Shown in pieces: positions 12,636 to 20,162 of a DNA stretch of 64,000 bases (within the stretch, counting starts at the first letter, position 1; the number at the start of each line of letters is the position of its first letter). The stretch covers positions 62,001 through 126,000 of the forward strand of contig JAFLBF010000005.1 in assembly GCA_017303895.1 (NCBI GenBank), written 5' to 3'. Source of the stretch: Bacteroidota bacterium. Lineage in GTDB: Bacteria; Bacteroidota; Bacteroidia; 2-12-FULL-35-15. The translations under genes and the position numbers were made by a program. The notes beneath the pieces are model-generated. The model did not search any database. It was not told where the DNA came from and saw only the letters and a list, made by a program, of their open reading frames with translations.

Positions 12636-12649
12636 ATAAAAATTAAAAA

Positions 12650-12676
12650 GTCCTGAACATTGTTCAGGACTTTTTT
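12650..12676 (+). terminator. Intrinsic terminator after parC
   Basis: GTCCTGAACA (12650-12659) pairs with TGTTCAGGAC (12661-12670) around a single T, followed by six T residues. It marks the end of the parE-parC operon and lies about 95 bp before the first GC-rich element of the CRISPR region. Confidence 0.9.
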
Positions 12677-12770
12677 GTTCTTGGAGTCAAATATATGTCT
12701 TTGAAAATGTTCCACTTTGAAAGTTGCTGGAAAGGTAATTTTTATCAAAACTGAATGATTGTTCTAAAAA

Positions 12771-12800
12771 TGTCCCCCTTTGGAGGGGGCAGGGGGAGGT
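12771..12800 (-). repeat. GC-rich element, copy A (outer left inverted copy)
   Basis: On + it reads TGTCCCCCTTTGGAGGGGG followed by CAGGGGGAGGT. The core CCCCCTTTGGAGGGGG is itself a near palindrome. It is the inverse of copy F at 20172-20201, so the pair brackets the CRISPR array, the cas genes and the tracrRNA. Such a run of G and C is striking in this AT-rich sequence. Confidence 0.85.
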
Positions 12801-12838
12801 GATTTATTTTGCTTGTATATTAGTATTCGTTAACGTTG

Positions 12839-12885
12839 TTTCTTTTTTGCTTTCAAAATGTATCTTTGATCTATTGATAAACACT
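12839..12885 (+). repeat. Degenerate first CRISPR repeat
   Basis: The first ten positions read TTTCTTTTTT instead of GTTGTGATTT; the remaining 37 nt match the consensus. The lost part includes the -33-like TTG and half of the tracrRNA-pairing handle, while the -7 box TATCTTTG is kept. Terminal decay usually marks the oldest end of an array. Confidence 0.85.
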
Positions 12886-12915
12886 GTAACCTCTCTCATT
12901 ACTTCTACCGTTCTG

Positions 12916-12944
12916 TTGTGATTTGCTTTCAAAATGTATCTTTG
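12916..12944 (+). promoter_or_regulatory. Repeat-embedded promoter (example: repeat 2)
   Basis: Within the repeat, TTG (repeat positions 2-4) is followed after 18 nt by TATCTTTG (23-30), matching the Bacteroidota consensus TTTG-N19-21-TAnnTTTG closely. Transcription would start around repeat position 35, about 12 nt before the spacer. All intact repeats carry the same sequence, so each spacer may have its own promoter, as shown experimentally for Neisseria type II-C arrays. Activity here is inferred. Confidence 0.6.
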
Positions 12945-14336
12945 ATCTATTGATAAACACTAGTGTGTCCTGCGTTAGCGGCTTACCTTCAGTTGTGATT
13001 TGCTTTCAAAATGTATCTTTGATCTATTGATAAACACTAAAGAAACATGAAAATTGAAAGAATCCTTGGTTGTGATTTGCTTTCAAAATGTATCTTTGAT
13101 CTATTGATAAACACTTGAGCAGTCTTCTTTAATCCTCTTGCTTTAGTTGTGATTTGCTTTCAAAATGTATCTTTGATCTATTGATAAACACTTTCACCGC
13201 TATTCCCGTAGTTCATATCTACGTTGTGATTTGCTTTCAAAATGTATCTTTGATCTATTGATAAACACTTGCTTATTCTAAAGTAATTGTATCTAGAACG
13301 TTGTGATTTGCTTTCAAAATGTATCTTTGATCTATTGATAAACACTTAAAATGTTTGTATTGATCGATCCAGGACAGTTGTGATTTGCTTTCAAAATGTA
13401 TCTTTGATCTATTGATAAACACTCATAGTGAAATCGATGTAAGTAATCCACAGTTGTGATTTGCTTTCAAAATGTATCTTTGATCTATTGATAAACACTT
13501 GATCAGTTGGATGGTGCATCACTAACCTTGTTGTGATTTGCTTTCAAAATGTATCTTTGATCTATTGATAAACACTGGCCGGTAACAATAAACAATTGGC
13601 ACGTTGTTGTGATTTGCTTTCAAAATGTATCTTTGATCTATTGATAAACACTAGCCCAAATCAAAACATAGTTGATACTTTGTTGTGATTTGCTTTCAAA
13701 ATGTATCTTTGATCTATTGATAAACACTAAGGCTTTACCAGAAAAGAAAATAGTTATTGTTGTGATTTGCTTTCAAAATGTATCTTTGATCTATTGATAA
13801 ACACTTAGGAAATTCATTTATAGTAAGCTAATGGCGTTGTGATTTGCTTTCAAAATGTATCTTTGATCTATTGATAAACACTTAACTGCATGGGAAAACG
13901 CTAAAAAGATTAGTTGTGATTTGCTTTCAAAATGTATCTTTGATCTATTGATAAACACTAACCGTTCGCTTCTTCCATGGTTCGCTTTAGTTGTGATTTG
14001 CTTTCAAAATGTATCTTTGATCTATTGATAAACACTGGAAACAACATTGGAGCTGGATAACATGGGGTTGTGATTTGCTTTCAAAATGTATCTTTGATCT
14101 ATTGATAAACACTCCTGAGTGTCGCAGTAATCAGTTTGGTTGCGTTGTGATTTGCTTTCAAAATGTATCTTTGATCTATTGATAAACACTCGTTTCGAGA
14201 TCTTGATGATGACTAAATTGGTTGTGATTTGCTTTCAAAATGTATCTTTGATCTATTGATAAACACTATATCAATTAACAAGAATTTGTATCACACAGTT
14301 GTGATTTGCTTTCAAAATGTATCTTTGATCTATTGA

Positions 14337-14389
14337 TAAACACTATACTGTTCTAAAATCATTGATTTTGAAGTGTTTAAATAGTGTTT
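14337..14389. promoter_or_regulatory. Nested inverted repeat at the cas2-side end of the array (candidate leader anchor)
   Basis: The end of the last repeat, TAAACACT (14337-14344), can pair with AGTGTTTA (14372-14379). Inside that, AAAATC (14355-14360) pairs with GATTTT (14364-14369). A further AGTGTTT lies at 14383-14389. This AT-rich flank is the candidate leader if new spacers enter at the cas-proximal end. It could also fold in the RNA read from the last repeat's promoter. Confidence 0.5.
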
Positions 14390-14423
14390 TGAGATTAAAA
14401 AAATGTGTGCTTTATCAATTATA

Positions 14424-14449
14424 AATCCGGCTTTTTGCCGGATTTTTTT
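14424..14449 (+). terminator. Intrinsic terminator at the 3' end of the array
   Basis: AATCCGGC (14424-14431), loop TTTTT, GCCGGATT (14437-14444), then T residues to 14449. It ends transcription coming out of the array in crRNA sense, one base before the cas2 stop codon, so array and cas transcripts converge here. Confidence 0.9.
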
Positions 14450-14450
14450 A

Positions 14451-14885
<435 letters not shown>

Positions 14886-14894
<9 letters not shown>

Positions 14895-14914
14895 CTGGAG
14901 GGGGTAGGGGGAGG
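14886..14914 (-). repeat. GC-rich element, copy B (inside the DUF559 3' end)
   Basis: On + it reads TGTCCCCCTCTGGAGGGGG followed by TAGGGGGAGG. It is inverted relative to copy C at 15311-15340, matching it at all but one position over about 30 bp, with the DUF559 gene between them. It is translated in frame as the Pro-rich C-terminus of that gene. Confidence 0.9.
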
Positions 14915-15310
14915 ACTCATTTTTTCAAGCCCTTCAATTTTCTCCTCAATTTTCTTTTTTACAATTTCGATGCTTTTAAGAACTTCTTCATCCTTAAAAC
15001 GGATAACTGTAAAACCTGCATCTTCCAAGTTTTTCTGCCTGATAGCATCGTTTTTGATCACATTTTCAAATGTGTGAGTCATTCCATCTACTTCAATTAT
15101 GAGCATCAACTCTTTGCACATAAAATCGGCTATATAATTTAGTACGGGACGCTGTCTGTTAAATGTGTAACCTCTCATTGCTTTTGACTTTAGTGCATAT
15201 TTCCACAGGCAAGCTTCTGCTTTGGTCATGTTAAAGCGTAATTTGTGGGCATTTGGTTGGAGTTTGATGTTATATGCTAAATGGTTTTGTTTGTTTGCTG
15301 TGGTCATTTT

Positions 15311-15520
15311 TCCTCCCCCTGCCCCCTCCAGAGGGGGACAAGCTCAGTAATTGAGTTTATAATTTGGTTAGTTTGTTTTGTGTTTTCTCATCCCTACATC
15401 TTCCAGAGGGGGCCAAACTCTGTAATTGAGTTTATTTTGGTTAATTTGTTTCTTGTTTTTGTTTTTGTTTTTTCTCATCACTAGATCTTCCAGCGTGGGA
15501 CAAGCTTCGTAATTAAAATT
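15311..15520 (+). repeat. Tandem decayed GC-rich elements, copies C, D and E
   Basis: Three units in a row. C (15311-15390) has the intact core CCTCCCCCTGCCCCCTCC then AGAGGGGGACA and a tail GTAATTGAGTTTAT. D (15391-15477) has core TTCCAGAGGGGG and the same tail. E (15478-15520) has TTCCAGCGTGGGACAAGC and a decayed tail that includes the cas1 stop codon. The period is about 80-87 bp with T-rich spacers ending TTTTCTCA. The graded decay suggests serial duplication. Confidence 0.85.
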
Positions 15521-16454
15521 CGGGATATAGTAATTTACGTTGCTCACCTGTAAAACATCTGACTAAACTTACTGCTGTCCGTTGTGTGGCGTTCATTAAT
15601 GGACTTTTTTCATCATCAATGATCACATCCATTGCAGGAATTTTTAGTAAAACGGTTTTTATTTCTTTTGAAATATCTTCTTGAGGTTCATGTTCATGTA
15701 AAATATTGCACACCACCTTATCTACTAATGGTCGATAGGGTTCCATCAGGTCATCAGCCAGGCAATAGGCATTGTATCTATTTTTATGAAAAATTCCCAA
15801 AGTAGGTAATAGTCCTGCTGAAACAATACTTCTTGCCATTGTTGCCCTTAGTAGAGAGTATCCATAATTCAGATAATTGTTCGGGGGTAATCCTTCCCTT
15901 TCTCGTCTGAATTCATTTTGATTGTGAAGTAGGGCTGGAGATAGTGCTTTCCAATAATACGCTGCAGCAATTCCTTCTGCATTTTCAGAGTCACCGCTTT
16001 TTACATTTTTATGTAATGGTATTAAAAAATCATGTTTAATACCCCGGGATTGCAGATGTGCCTTTTGATTTTTAATTTTTTGCTCTATGGTTTGAGCCCA
16101 TAATTGTTTTTTTAGTGGTTCGCTGGCGCTTATTTGCTCTCTGAATCGCTCACTTTGTATCGTGTTTCCACTTAAAGGCATCATTAAACCACTTGGATGA
16201 TGTGTACTATTACAAGTAATTAGTACCACATTGTTATCCAACAAAGCTTCCATTAGAGCTTGTGTAATGGTGATTTGCTTATGGTCGAGTACTACAATGC
16301 CGATATCTTCAATAGGAATTGTGGCAATAGCCTCCTTTTTGAAACTTTCGGGTAAGGATTCATTTTTTTCTACTTCAGGCAAACGAACCATTAATTGAGC
16401 ATTACTCAAATTTAAGTAGGCAGGATTGCCGAAGTAGAGAGTGCGTTTGATCAT
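15513..16454 (-). CDS. cas1: CRISPR-associated integrase Cas1 (type II)
   Basis: 313 residues, typical of type II Cas1. The catalytic metal ligands are E160 (SENAEGIAAAYYW), H223 (LGIFHKNRYNAY) and E238 (ADDLMEPYRP). It integrates new spacers together with Cas2. The start overlaps the cas9 stop by 4 bp (ATGA), so it is translationally coupled to cas9. The gene's 3' end runs into decayed GC-rich unit E. It is separated from cas2 by the DUF559 gene and about 270 bp of repeat-rich DNA. Confidence 0.97.
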   Translation of the reverse strand: MIKRTLYFGNPAYLNLSNAQLMVRLPEVEKNESLPESFKKEAIATIPIEDIGIVVLDHKQITITQALMEALLDNNVVLITCNSTHHPSGLMMPLSGNTIQSERFREQISASEPLKKQLWAQTIEQKIKNQKAHLQSRGIKHDFLIPLHKNVKSGDSENAEGIAAAYYWKALSPALLHNQNEFRREREGLPPNNYLNYGYSLLRATMARSIVSAGLLPTLGIFHKNRYNAYCLADDLMEPYRPLVDKVVCNILHEHEPQEDISKEIKTVLLKIPAMDVIIDDEKSPLMNATQRTAVSLVRCFTGEQRKLLYPEF

Positions 16455-19400
16455 TCTCCAATTTTTATAATTTCGCCTAAATGATTAATTCTAATTTTTG
16501 TTATTCGAATTAATTGAGAATTTGAAGTTATGTTTATCCAAGTTAATTCAGGTATATTTCTCTCGACAGTTGTTTCTAAATGGTGTCTAAAATGAATGTC
16601 AAACTGTCCATTAGATTTTTTACTCATTTTTTGTAATCTAAATAATTTTTTACTGATAATTGGCCTGTTTTTATGGTCAAGGAAATTAAGCTCATTTTCA
16701 GCTGGTTTTTCGGAATGTTTTAAATCGAAAACAAATAAATCGTTAATCATCATTGAAAACTGAAATGCTCCAAGTATACTATCATCTTTTTTATTAATTA
16801 TCGGATAAGGTTTACCTGTTTGCTGAATATTTATTGTGCCAATAGAAATTGCCTCCCAAAATGAAATAACTTTTTCGTTAAATTTCCCGTTTCCATCTCG
16901 ATATATTAGGGCATGATGATTGCCACCGGTTTTAACGAAGCCATTTCTTAATTGTTCTACTTTACTTTCATCATATACGGTAACAGATTTAATTTGAATT
17001 CCTTTTTCTTTATTTAACCAAATGGGGTTATCTCTTAAATTAGAAAAAGCCTCTTTTATTTTCCCGCTTTTTGCTATTCTATCTTGAATAATGCTTTTAA
17101 TTTTTTTATCTGTAATCTTTTCTACTTGTGCAGATGTAAAATTCTCAGAAATAGGGACACGTTTTGTACAGGTTTCTTCATATACCTGAACTTCTTTAAG
17201 TTCTTGATTTTTATATACTATTGGATTCTTTTTTAATATTTTTGAATTAAACGCAATTTCAGGGTTATCTTGGTGTTGGGATAGATGATTTTTAATTAAG
17301 TTTTTAATTTCGGGGTTTACAATGTTATCGGGATTGGTGAATTTTTCATTTAGTTTAGCTTTTTTTTCTGCAACTCTTTTTACTTTACCCATCACAGTAT
17401 CTTCGTGTATTCTACCTCTTGGGGTCCATGTTGTTTGGGGCTTAGCGTTTTTAGGTTCGTTAATATTTTTACTTAAAACCTTGGAGGATTTTTTAATAGA
17501 AATAAAGATGCTTTCTAGATGCTTTTTTGCCTCTTCTCTTATATTTTTAATTGGAGAATAGTAATAATCATCAATTAAATCAGCAAACGATTTAATGTCT
17601 AGCTTTTCAAAATCATAGGTAGCTTTAATTTTTTCTAATTCTTCATTGCTAAGAGCATCCCTTTGGTATTGATATATTTTATTTAGATTATTGAGTTTAA
17701 ATATGATTTTCTGATCTGTTAATGCACAGATTAAGGCATCAACAGCATGATGTCTGTGGTCATCTCTCTTGCTCCAGTCTTTAATCGTTTCGAAGGTTTT
17801 TATGTTACCTAGTTTGTCTTTGTATTCTTTAGTTTCTATTTGTCCAATAGCTTTATATTTATCAAAGCTAATTTCTTGCAATACATCTTTTAATTCCCAC
17901 TTTTCACGTAAAAAGTCAGTAATTTGTCCAGTAGTTGTATATGTATTTTCACAAACATTTTTAAGCATTTTTACTGCCTCTTTTGAAATGTACTGTGAGT
18001 CTTTCTTCATTCTTTCCACAAAATCAGAAGGAATGTCTTCTCCCTTACACATAAGGTTTTCAAATTTTGATTTTGAAATAGAACCTTTTCCATCTTTATA
18101 AAAATCGTTTACTTTTTTTATATATTGCTCAAGAACATCTGCCCCTTTTGATTCCATAAAGTCGTATGCGGTCATTTGATTTTTACCTTCTTTACCGCTG
18201 TTACATTTTCTATGAGCTAGTATGTAATTGTTTGAATTGTTACTAAATGATCTCGATTTTGGTAAAATGTGCTCAATTTCTCCATTTCCAGTTAAAAAAT
18301 CTGTTTTTGTTATCGGATTACTACAGTACAAGCATTGTTTATCAGTTTCATTCCACAATTTATAACGTTGAACGTCTCTTCCATTTACAATTTTATAACT
18401 GTATTCTTTTTGTAACATTTCTCTTACTTTATCATTCTCTTTTTTGTTTTTTGAATTTAGGTTAGTGAGATTTTTTCTTGTTTTAGCACTATTTCTAAGT
18501 TCTCTGGCTAATTCAACTCTTATTTCATCAAACTTTCCATGTTTATAAATAGCAAGATTCACAATATTTACAACTTGATTTAATATTTGCTCAACAACAG
18601 GGTTCCTTAAACTGTTTTGTTTAATTGGGCTTAATTTTTTTTCTAGTTTTATTTTAGTTTTATAACCACTATGGTCATATTTTATAGCATCGCATGCTTC
18701 GCTATAATTTAATCCTTTTTGTAAATGGGGTAATAGTTTTCTTATTGCTCGTGTTGATAAATTGCCATAATCGGAGGTGTAGCCAACTTCTTTTGAAATA
18801 ATTTCGGATTGTTTTTTTGTGAATTTAAACCTTTGTTCGAGGGTTTTAATAACATCATTTTCATTAGGTATTGAGTAGGTTATATGCCATAACTCCATTA
18901 GGCCACCTTTTTCATCATTTTTATCTAAATTGAAAAATAGATAATCTTCCGGAGTTGTTATATCCGCTTTTGTTAATGCATTTTTAATAATAGAATAGGT
19001 TCTACTTCCATCAAGTTCAGTAAAATTTAAATAACCTTCATTCCTTTTTAATCCTAGTGTTTTTTTTATTTCAGTAACAGTTAGTTTGTATTTATTATTT
19101 AGTTTTTCTCCAAAGAATAATATATTAAATAATTCTTGTTTTTGTCCTAATGTTGGTTTTGTTTTTGTTCCATTTTCATATGTAATCTCCAAGTCATTTA
19201 AACGCTGCCATATTTTAAAAACCTCAAAATACGGGGATGATTTCGTGACAGCCTTATGATGTTTTTCAAATTGACAGTTTGACACTAATCCTTTTTGACT
19301 TTTTAAAGGTCTTTGATAAAAGATAATTTTATTGCGTATTATATTGTATAAAGTCCCTCTATTATCATCTTCATTTACGCCACCAGTTAATATTTTACTG

Positions 19401-20020
19401 TGATATTTTTTTTGACACTCCCAAATTCTATCAAATTCCTCAATGTACGATGCTCGTAAATATGTCCTTTCTCTTAAAATTATTTCGAAACTATTTTTTG
19501 TGTTTATTATTTCAGAGTATAACTGTTGTCCTATTGTTTTGCCATTTAATTCGTGTTCTAGTTCGGCAATTCTTTTTTTGTAATCCGTGGAATTTTCTTC
19601 TTCGGAATTTGATTTTCTATTACTTAAAAAGCCTCTACGTTGGTTTAATAAAATTAAAACACGACCTAATTCTTTCAATGATATTTGTTTTGTAACAGCA
19701 TTTGCCCTCAATTGGTACAATTCATTGGTGGGAAGCTTAAATAATAGATCGCTTGGGAACAAATTGTGCTCCTTAAGAATTGTATATAAAAAGTCACGTC
19801 TTTGCTTAAAGCGCTGATATCCTCTTCTTATGCTTCTATTTGTAGTTCGATCTAAGTTTTTACTTGCGGTATTTCCTGAATAAAATTTTCCATGAAAATT
19901 AGGATCTTCAGGGACTATTCGTACTGCTAATTCTTTTATCTCTTTTTGTTTGTTTTCCTCGTAAACTACAGAAAGCCCCACAGAAGAAACTCCAATATCC
20001 AATCCTAAAATCTTTTTCAT
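16451..20020 (-). CDS. cas9: CRISPR-associated endonuclease Cas9, type II-C
   Basis: 1189 residues, with all nuclease motifs intact. RuvC-I: D8 in ILGLDIGVSSVG. Arg-rich bridge helix: NRSIRRGYQRFKQRR (61-75). RuvC-II: E503 in IRVELAREL. HNH: H584 (EIEHILPKS) and N607 (HRKCNSGK), with C563 and C566 as a likely zinc pair. RuvC-III: H758 and D761 (HRHHAVDALI). The C-terminal 350 residues would hold the wedge and PAM-interacting domains. The absence of csn2 and cas4 makes this subtype II-C. It is shorter than many Bacteroidota Cas9 proteins (roughly 1350-1500 residues) and longer than compact Neisseria-type ones. By eye it is more AT-rich than flanking housekeeping genes, consistent with acquisition by transfer. 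Confidence 0.98.
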   Translation of the reverse strand: MKKILGLDIGVSSVGLSVVYEENKQKEIKELAVRIVPEDPNFHGKFYSGNTASKNLDRTTNRSIRRGYQRFKQRRDFLYTILKEHNLFPSDLLFKLPTNELYQLRANAVTKQISLKELGRVLILLNQRRGFLSNRKSNSEEENSTDYKKRIAELEHELNGKTIGQQLYSEIINTKNSFEIILRERTYLRASYIEEFDRIWECQKKYHSKILTGGVNEDDNRGTLYNIIRNKIIFYQRPLKSQKGLVSNCQFEKHHKAVTKSSPYFEVFKIWQRLNDLEITYENGTKTKPTLGQKQELFNILFFGEKLNNKYKLTVTEIKKTLGLKRNEGYLNFTELDGSRTYSIIKNALTKADITTPEDYLFFNLDKNDEKGGLMELWHITYSIPNENDVIKTLEQRFKFTKKQSEIISKEVGYTSDYGNLSTRAIRKLLPHLQKGLNYSEACDAIKYDHSGYKTKIKLEKKLSPIKQNSLRNPVVEQILNQVVNIVNLAIYKHGKFDEIRVELARELRNSAKTRKNLTNLNSKNKKENDKVREMLQKEYSYKIVNGRDVQRYKLWNETDKQCLYCSNPITKTDFLTGNGEIEHILPKSRSFSNNSNNYILAHRKCNSGKEGKNQMTAYDFMESKGADVLEQYIKKVNDFYKDGKGSISKSKFENLMCKGEDIPSDFVERMKKDSQYISKEAVKMLKNVCENTYTTTGQITDFLREKWELKDVLQEISFDKYKAIGQIETKEYKDKLGNIKTFETIKDWSKRDDHRHHAVDALICALTDQKIIFKLNNLNKIYQYQRDALSNEELEKIKATYDFEKLDIKSFADLIDDYYYSPIKNIREEAKKHLESIFISIKKSSKVLSKNINEPKNAKPQTTWTPRGRIHEDTVMGKVKRVAEKKAKLNEKFTNPDNIVNPEIKNLIKNHLSQHQDNPEIAFNSKILKKNPIVYKNQELKEVQVYEETCTKRVPISENFTSAQVEKITDKKIKSIIQDRIAKSGKIKEAFSNLRDNPIWLNKEKGIQIKSVTVYDESKVEQLRNGFVKTGGNHHALIYRDGNGKFNEKVISFWEAISIGTINIQQTGKPYPIINKKDDSILGAFQFSMMINDLFVFDLKHSEKPAENELNFLDHKNRPIISKKLFRLQKMSKKSNGQFDIHFRHHLETTVERNIPELTWINITSNSQLIRITKIRINHLGEIIKIGE

Positions 20021-20052: not shown

Positions 20053-20082
20053 TTTGAGGATAAAAACAAATGATTATATTTG
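20053..20082 (+). promoter_or_regulatory. tracrRNA promoter
   Basis: TTTG (20053-20056), 18 nt, TATATTTG (20075-20082): a near-ideal Bacteroidota promoter. It would start transcription at about 20087, exactly where the anti-repeat begins. The same TTG-N18-TAnnTTTG geometry occurs in every intact CRISPR repeat. The cas9 promoter must lie on the opposite strand within 20021-20075. Confidence 0.75.
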
Positions 20083-20086
20083 TGTA

Positions 20087-20162
20087 CATTTTGAAGCAAA
20101 TCACAATAAGGATTATTCCGTTGTGAAAACATTTAAAGCGGGAGGTAACTCTCGCTTTTTTT
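20087..20162 (+). ncRNA. tracrRNA
   Basis: The anti-repeat ACATTTTGAAGCAAATCACA (20087-20106) is complementary to the first 22 nt of the CRISPR repeat with one bulged base. A CACAA...TTGTG stem (20102-20106 with 20121-20125) around AAGGATTATTCC could form the nexus. A terminator hairpin follows: AGCGGGAG (20137-20144) with CTCTCGCT (20149-20156) and seven T residues. The predicted RNA is about 75 nt and diverges from cas9. It pairs with pre-crRNA for RNase III processing and Cas9 loading. Confidence 0.92.
20137..20162 (+). terminator. tracrRNA terminator
   Basis: AGCGGGAG, loop GTAA, CTCTCGCT, then seven T residues. An 8-bp stem with one G-T pair. Copy F of the GC-rich element begins 10 bp downstream. 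Confidence 0.88.

Follow-up and report, generated by a model that had tools for sequence, protein, structure and literature searches.

A candidate Bacteroidota-type promoter inside the repeats of a type II-C CRISPR array

Repeat-embedded promoters for CRISPR RNAs (crRNAs; CRISPR, clustered regularly interspaced short palindromic repeats) are established in the type II-C systems of Neisseria and Campylobacter (Zhang 2013 and Dugar 2013, cited in PMC8616872; PMC4607530), have been suggested for Clostridium cellulolyticum (PMC7038990) and, in the form of sigma-70 boxes, have been predicted across II-C repeats (PMC4607530, in whose text a search for Bacteroidota names found no mention). Within Bacteroidota, a -33 TTG was proposed in the repeats of Flavobacterium columnare, with eight reads on the array (Hoikkala 2021; PMC8092290), and was followed in 2023 for F. 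psychrophilum, TAnnTTTG being placed only at cas9 (PMC10309648); no promoter was found in the repeats of Riemerella anatipestifer (PMC5006608), and none was strongly predicted for the trans-activating CRISPR RNA (tracrRNA) of Prevotella intermedia (PMC5608340). Here we analyse a II-C array from a Bacteroidota bacterium (2-12-FULL-35-15; assembly GCA_017303895.1) in a window of 64,000 nucleotides (nt) of contig JAFLBF010000005.1 (positions 62,001 to 126,000, forward strand; coordinates below count from its first letter), and argue that each 47-nt repeat probably holds a promoter of the Bacteroidota housekeeping type (TTG at repeat positions 2-4, 18 nt, then TATCTTTG at 23-30), a reading we put at about 0.8. 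Repeat-borne II-C promoters and the -33 TTG of Flavobacterium are already known, and the new part is the -7 box: we found no report of a TAnnTTTG box in such repeats in the literature searched, most subscription journals being outside its scope.

The array (12839-14344) comprises 20 repeats of 47 nt, 19 of them identical (GTTGTGATTTGCTTTCAAAATGTATCTTTGATCTATTGATAAACACT; 12915 through 14344) and the first degenerate at its 5' end. All 19 exact copies carry TTG at 2-4, a gap of 18 nt (N18) and TATCTTTG at 23-30, just as the original prediction had described. Its claim that every repeat holds the promoter stands for the -7 box (20 of 20) and fails for the TTG at 2-4, which has become TTC in the first repeat (beginning TTTCTTTTTTGCTTTC, with TATCTTTG unchanged), where the closest TTG to the box falls just outside the repeat, at N22. 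The repeats are:

12839-12885, + strand: repeat 1, leader-distal, 5' end degenerate, TTG 2-4 lost; -7 box TATCTTTG at 12861-12868
12915-12961, + strand: repeat 2, intact; TTG at 12916-12918, -7 box TATCTTTG at 12937-12944
12992-13038, + strand: repeat 3, intact; -7 box 13014-13021
13069-13115, + strand: repeat 4, intact; -7 box 13091-13098
13146-13192, + strand: repeat 5, intact; -7 box 13168-13175
13223-13269, + strand: repeat 6, intact; -7 box 13245-13252
13300-13346, + strand: repeat 7, intact; -7 box 13322-13329
13377-13423, + strand: repeat 8, intact; -7 box 13399-13406
13453-13499, + strand: repeat 9, intact; -7 box 13475-13482
13530-13576, + strand: repeat 10, intact; -7 box 13552-13559
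13606-13652, + strand: repeat 11, intact; -7 box 13628-13635
13682-13728, + strand: repeat 12, intact; -7 box 13704-13711
13759-13805, + strand: repeat 13, intact; -7 box 13781-13788
13836-13882, + strand: repeat 14, intact; -7 box 13858-13865
13913-13959, + strand: repeat 15, intact; -7 box 13935-13942
13990-14036, + strand: repeat 16, intact; -7 box 14012-14019
14067-14113, + strand: repeat 17, intact; -7 box 14089-14096
14144-14190, + strand: repeat 18, intact; -7 box 14166-14173
14221-14267, + strand: repeat 19, intact; -7 box 14243-14250
14298-14344, + strand: repeat 20, intact, leader-proximal, on the cas2 side; -7 box 14320-14327

In its II-C type, its putative promoter per repeat, convergent transcription, degenerate first repeat and (here predicted) singly made crRNAs, the locus resembles those of Neisseria meningitidis, N. 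lactamica and Campylobacter jejuni, and here too the repeat contains, on its crRNA strand, a promoter core of the host's type; the Neisseria precedent invoked by the original prediction is borne out by PMC8616872 and PMC4607530. However, Neisseria and Campylobacter have a sigma-70 -10 element (gnTAnaaT) at columns 31-36 and start near the spacer, whereas here TAnnTTTG stands at 23-30, the predicted start would lie 11-13 nt before the spacer and columns 31-36 read ATCTAT, which does not match a sigma-70 -10 (TAnaaT). Repeat length and locus layout are those of the 47-nt II-C arrays of R. anatipestifer and P. intermedia (PMC5006608, PMC5608340). With F. columnare and F. psychrophilum, whose sparse RNA sequencing reads run towards the leader, the locus shares the phylum and a repeat promoter whose -33 TTG is proposed on sequence grounds, but the Flavobacterium proposals (PMC8092290, PMC10309648) comprise the TTG only, with no -7 box in the repeat. 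One Bacteroidia family, probably Flavobacterium, has 36-nt repeats with a terminal GATATT 19 nt past a TTG at 9-11 and no TAnnTTTG at 23-30. Alike in word, order and spacing are the sigma-ABfr promoters (TTTG / TAnnTTTG; PMC7366714), except that here the elements sit inside a tandem CRISPR repeat; in Bacteroides thetaiotaomicron, that paper detected no CRISPR array.

Because the copies in an array amount to a single observation, we counted them as one rather than 20, and the case for a promoter rests on comparison with other genomes. When the repeat is shuffled, TAnnTTTG turns up by chance in 6.9% of cases, and TTG-N17-23-TAnnTTTG in 0.5%. Across 638 kb of the host genome, TAnnTTTG was the most enriched word of the form XXnnXXXX in front of predicted genes (118 sense-strand occurrences versus 61 on the other strand and 24.6 in shuffles), with a density of 3.1 per kb upstream versus 0.45 in coding sequence and a median distance of 32 nt ahead of the start codon. 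TATAAT and TTGACA showed no enrichment upstream of genes in the same 638 kb, and the host by these measures uses the -7 word described for its phylum (PMC7366714). A sigma-70 promoter in the repeats was considered separately and rejected, as a scan of the locus gave 29 matches against 33.6 expected, with none in the repeats that made a convincing promoter. In other classes of the phylum, the relation between host word and repeat is mixed: genome G112 shows no TAnnTTTG enrichment, and G057 is enriched yet has GATATT in its repeat. For G112 (L240-L249), upstream TAnnTTTG came to 4 against 8.0 expected, and its II-C repeat, without the box, ends in GATATT.

The original prediction had proposed to look for the box across II-C repeats that differ elsewhere, and this comparison came out in its favour. 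Our sample comprises 107 distinct Bacteroidota type II repeats that have a cas1 gene close by; it is centred on relatives of this locus's Cas1, and pairs of relatives in it are not independent. Of the 107, 74 are long (44-48 nt) Bacteroidia repeats. On the crRNA strand, TAnnTTTG is present in 53 and TAnnTT[ACT]G in 62 of these 74. Counted per similarity cluster, the latter scores 16.0 of 25, where shuffles give 1.18 +/- 0.95 and the opposite strand 1.0; when no word is preselected, TAnnTTTG again ranks first among gapped words by cluster. Between relatives with a Cas1 identity of 75% or more, the box changed at 0.9% of sites in its fixed bases and at 20.8% in its two free nn bases; in the same pairs, change reached 25% in the stretch before the box, 35-43% in that behind it and 4.7% in the core that pairs with tracrRNA. 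Constraint that holds TA and TTTG but leaves nn free is what characterises this promoter element. Among internal repeats within arrays, one of 8,292 box bases was mutated versus 56 of 55,117 elsewhere, and the box occurred in one of 17 repeats of other CRISPR types in the phylum. We also drew 395 Bacteroidia genomes evenly and separately, a few of which were in the first sample too; in 39 of them the 17-nt start of the repeat occurs three or more times, and the strict box is present in 23 of the 39. The box slides over columns 22-28 or jumps to 31-33 while repeat length stays at 46-48 nt; column statistics from a gapped MAFFT alignment, which leaves a sliding box unaligned, were set aside in favour of word, pairwise and matrix tests, and clustering of repeats at a threshold of 0.4 gave two clusters only and was uninformative. 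Two Paludibacteraceae repeats, L053 and L063, close by Cas1, share much of the remaining 3' end, the former with TATCTTTG and the latter without a box, and are a natural pair for promoter comparison.

The same element recurs ahead of tracrRNA. In genomes with long repeats, 65 tracrRNA loci were recognised by CACAATAAGG, and in 46 of them TAnnTTTG precedes the end of the anti-repeat by a near-fixed distance, mostly 31-37 nt, versus 5.5% in shuffles. Over all groups, 42 of 48 tracrRNA boxes are accompanied by a TTG, mostly at N19 or N20. Scored with a weight matrix built from tracrRNA promoters alone, the repeat of this locus ranks at the 99.6th percentile among shuffles, and 62 of the 74 long repeats exceed the 95th. 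For the tracrRNA of this locus, TTG-N18-TATATTTG was found at 20054-20082, the very spacing that had been predicted. As the anti-repeat covers only about repeat positions 1-25, pairing ends near the start of the box and its last five bases, CTTTG, are unpaired; in most true tracrRNAs found, complementarity likewise stops at the first bases of the box.

The first repeat of a II-C array is required for the start of the first crRNA and not for tracrRNA pairing. In 34 arrays with a changed first repeat, 48% of sites in TTG 2-4, 35% in positions 5-16 and 3.4% in the box are mutated: the box is kept and the end that pairs with tracrRNA is lost, in line with a promoter in the repeat. Other observations, on first repeats and on the box itself, count against such a promoter. 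The remainder of the 3' half is preserved as well as the box is (2.7% mutated); the TTG at 2-4 is gone from 26 of 41 first repeats, and a substitute TTG in these occurs at chance level (6 versus 5.6 expected). Moreover, Bacteroidia repeats L050, L063, L074 and L080 have no such box, and GA replaces TA in many repeats although GAnnTTTG is not enriched upstream of host genes. The box is thus common but not universal, and L050 and L080 do have TAnnTTTG upstream of their anti-repeats though not in their repeats. A concentration of extra-repeat mutations in the first 15 nt, in II-C generally, has been described before, with promoter retention suggested as a reason (PMC12080349); our data agree with this, though in them the box does not stand out from the remaining 3' half. 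In the first repeat of L061, a perfect hairpin (ATCCCGATAAAAATCGGGAT) replaces the first 22 nt directly before an intact -7 box and is possibly an insulator of the kind described in that study.

The proposed match to the -33/-7 consensus of the phylum therefore divides. Its -7 part, backed by the host word and by constraint, offers real evidence for a promoter, while TTG 2-4 taken alone is weak evidence, because pairing with tracrRNA would fix it anyway and first repeats often lose it. Its N18 spacing fits, with tracrRNA promoters peaking at N19-20, and we regard the -33 role of this TTG as no more than plausible.

Some support for its spacing comes from the repeats that depart from the common form. 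Among 45 repeats without the strict box, 36 have [TG]AnnTT 18-21 nt past TTG 2-4 or a TTG at 9-11; per cluster this amounts to 20.6 of 27 versus 3.57 +/- 1.49 in shuffles (maximum 9.4 in 1,000 shuffles), statistics that are post hoc, the T having been widened to [TG] after the exceptions were seen. In the second register (TTG 9-11), nearly all boxes are at N19 or N20 and fall in columns 31-33, the same columns that the -10 occupies in Neisseria, Haemophilus and Campylobacter repeats of 36 nt (tabulated in PMC4607530); examples are GATATTTG, seen in four of eight additional genomes, and 36-nt repeats ending in GATATT. On this hypothesis the box lies, phylum-wide, some 19-20 nt past one of two TTGs, at 2-4 (usual in Bacteroidia) or at 9-11. 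A TG supplied by the spacer after 36-nt repeats ending in TAnnTT or GATATT showed no enrichment. On a Cas1 tree whose supports are shallow in places, the 46-nt repeats of several genomes from other classes fall inside the long-repeat clade, and these have mostly lost the TA of the strict box. The two-register pattern suggests an older register, common to other phyla, from which most Bacteroidia would have shifted the box about 8 bases upstream in a longer repeat. We give even odds to the wider idea that the Bacteroidota II-C repeat is a two-register scaffold, in which the old arrangement (TTG 9-11, N19-20, box 31-33) passed in most Bacteroidia to a new one (TTG 2-4, box 23-28), the repeat being lengthened to 46-48 nt and tuned to the sigma-ABfr -7 element, with a repeat-derived 5' head of 11-13 nt and each spacer transcribed singly.

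Applied to this locus, a repeat promoter would work as follows. With the box taken as centred on -7, we infer that polymerase with the primary sigma factor initiates at about repeat position 34-36, so that the transcript would open with the final 11-13 nt of that repeat, cross the 30-nt spacer and run into the next repeat. The tracrRNA, with a predicted promoter of the same type at a distance of 6 kb, would pair with positions 1-25 of that next repeat and bring the RNA to Cas9. Every spacer would have its own start, including the newest one, which is furthest from any outside promoter, and transcription would head towards cas2 and stop at the hairpin at 14423-14445. Trimming of the crRNA 5' end would be needed here and not in Neisseria, where the -10 at the repeat end puts the start at the spacer. 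The surrounding features are:

12645-12675, unstranded: terminator hairpin with U-run that can be read on either strand, in the gap between a topoisomerase IV-type gene and the array; -17.5 kcal/mol, z -5.4
14345-14422, unstranded: presumed leader, on the cas2 side between repeat 20 and the terminator; its orientation is taken from the position of the degenerate repeat at the other end
14423-14445, + strand: intrinsic terminator of array transcription; -14.1 kcal/mol, z -5.3
14451-14795, - strand: cas2 (TIGR01573)
15513-16454, - strand: cas1, type II (TIGR03639)
16451-20020, - strand: cas9, 1189 amino acids (TIGR01865)
20054-20082, + strand: putative tracrRNA promoter TTG-N18-TATATTTG; -7 box 20075-20082
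20084-20107, + strand: tracrRNA anti-repeat, pairing with about repeat positions 1-25; duplex -29.7 kcal/mol
20135-20158, + strand: tracrRNA terminator; -14.7 kcal/mol, z -5.9

The array is convergent to the cas genes, its degenerate repeat is at the 5' (leader-distal) end and the cas set is limited to cas9, cas1 and cas2 (csn2 and cas4 are absent, and one additional open reading frame, encoding DUF559, lies between cas2 and cas1), so this is an ordinary type II-C CRISPR-Cas9 system. Terminators predicted on both sides insulate the array. The additional gene (14861-15307, - strand), nuclease-like (PF04480) and the only DUF559 gene found in the genome, takes its final codons from a GC-rich palindrome, CCCCCTnTGGAGGGGG (within TGTCCCCCTnTGGAGGGGGnAGGGGGAGG); in G224 (L178), from another class, DUF559 is found at the same distance from cas1. 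The palindrome occurs at 12774, 14889, 15322 and 20183, two copies forward and two inverted; these are the only four in the 3.6-Mb genome, all at this locus and flanking the CRISPR-cas locus and the DUF559 gene. Some other genomes of the genus have scattered copies of it (14 in G402), so that it resembles a mobile or repetitive element marking this locus.

Dual processing by RNase III with tracrRNA is standard in other type II systems, and the array could, as in type II-A, be one long transcript that is cut in this way, the box being decorative and the promoter lying outside, upstream of 12839, where a weak TATATTAG occurs on the + strand (12816-12823). We consider this unlikely: TATATTAG has no TTG at N17-20, the only other upstream candidate (TATATTTG at 12695) faces the opposite way, read-through from the topoisomerase gene would be stopped by the terminator at 12645-12675, and an idle box should not change as little as 0.9% around a free nn. 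Lower still, we find it improbable that the box is kept for another task, be it crRNA-tracrRNA pairing, RNase III cutting or recognition by Cas1-Cas2 in spacer insertion. Repeats do serve all of these, and the first three box bases (TAT) can still pair with the anti-repeat in this locus; TTTG, however, is unpaired here and lies beyond the complementarity of most true tracrRNAs, a box that slides within repeats of constant length is unlike a fixed ruler, and the same box stands ahead of tracrRNA genes and host genes.

Shared ancestry alone would make the box a leftover word in related repeats, and relatedness is indeed strong, TATCTTTG being dominant (nn = TC in 42 of 62 boxes). Yet in the pairs that share 75% or more Cas1 identity, conservation of the box exceeds that of its flanks and of its own nn by a factor of 20 to 40, and the TTG-N19-20 spacing recurs in distant groups, which use the second register; this leaves ancestry as sole cause very improbable to our minds. 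A Bacteroidota-type promoter embedded in the repeat is, on the strength of these sequence comparisons, the best reading and well supported.

If it is true, such a promoter would explain how the newest II-C spacer comes to be expressed in Bacteroidota, a major phylum of gut and environmental bacteria, and would correct the published statement that repeats of this kind hold no promoter. It would also mean that the same design is met again with a different polymerase specificity; a II-C array moved between phyla should therefore fall silent unless its repeat changes, and the host range of II-C arrays would become testable from sequence.
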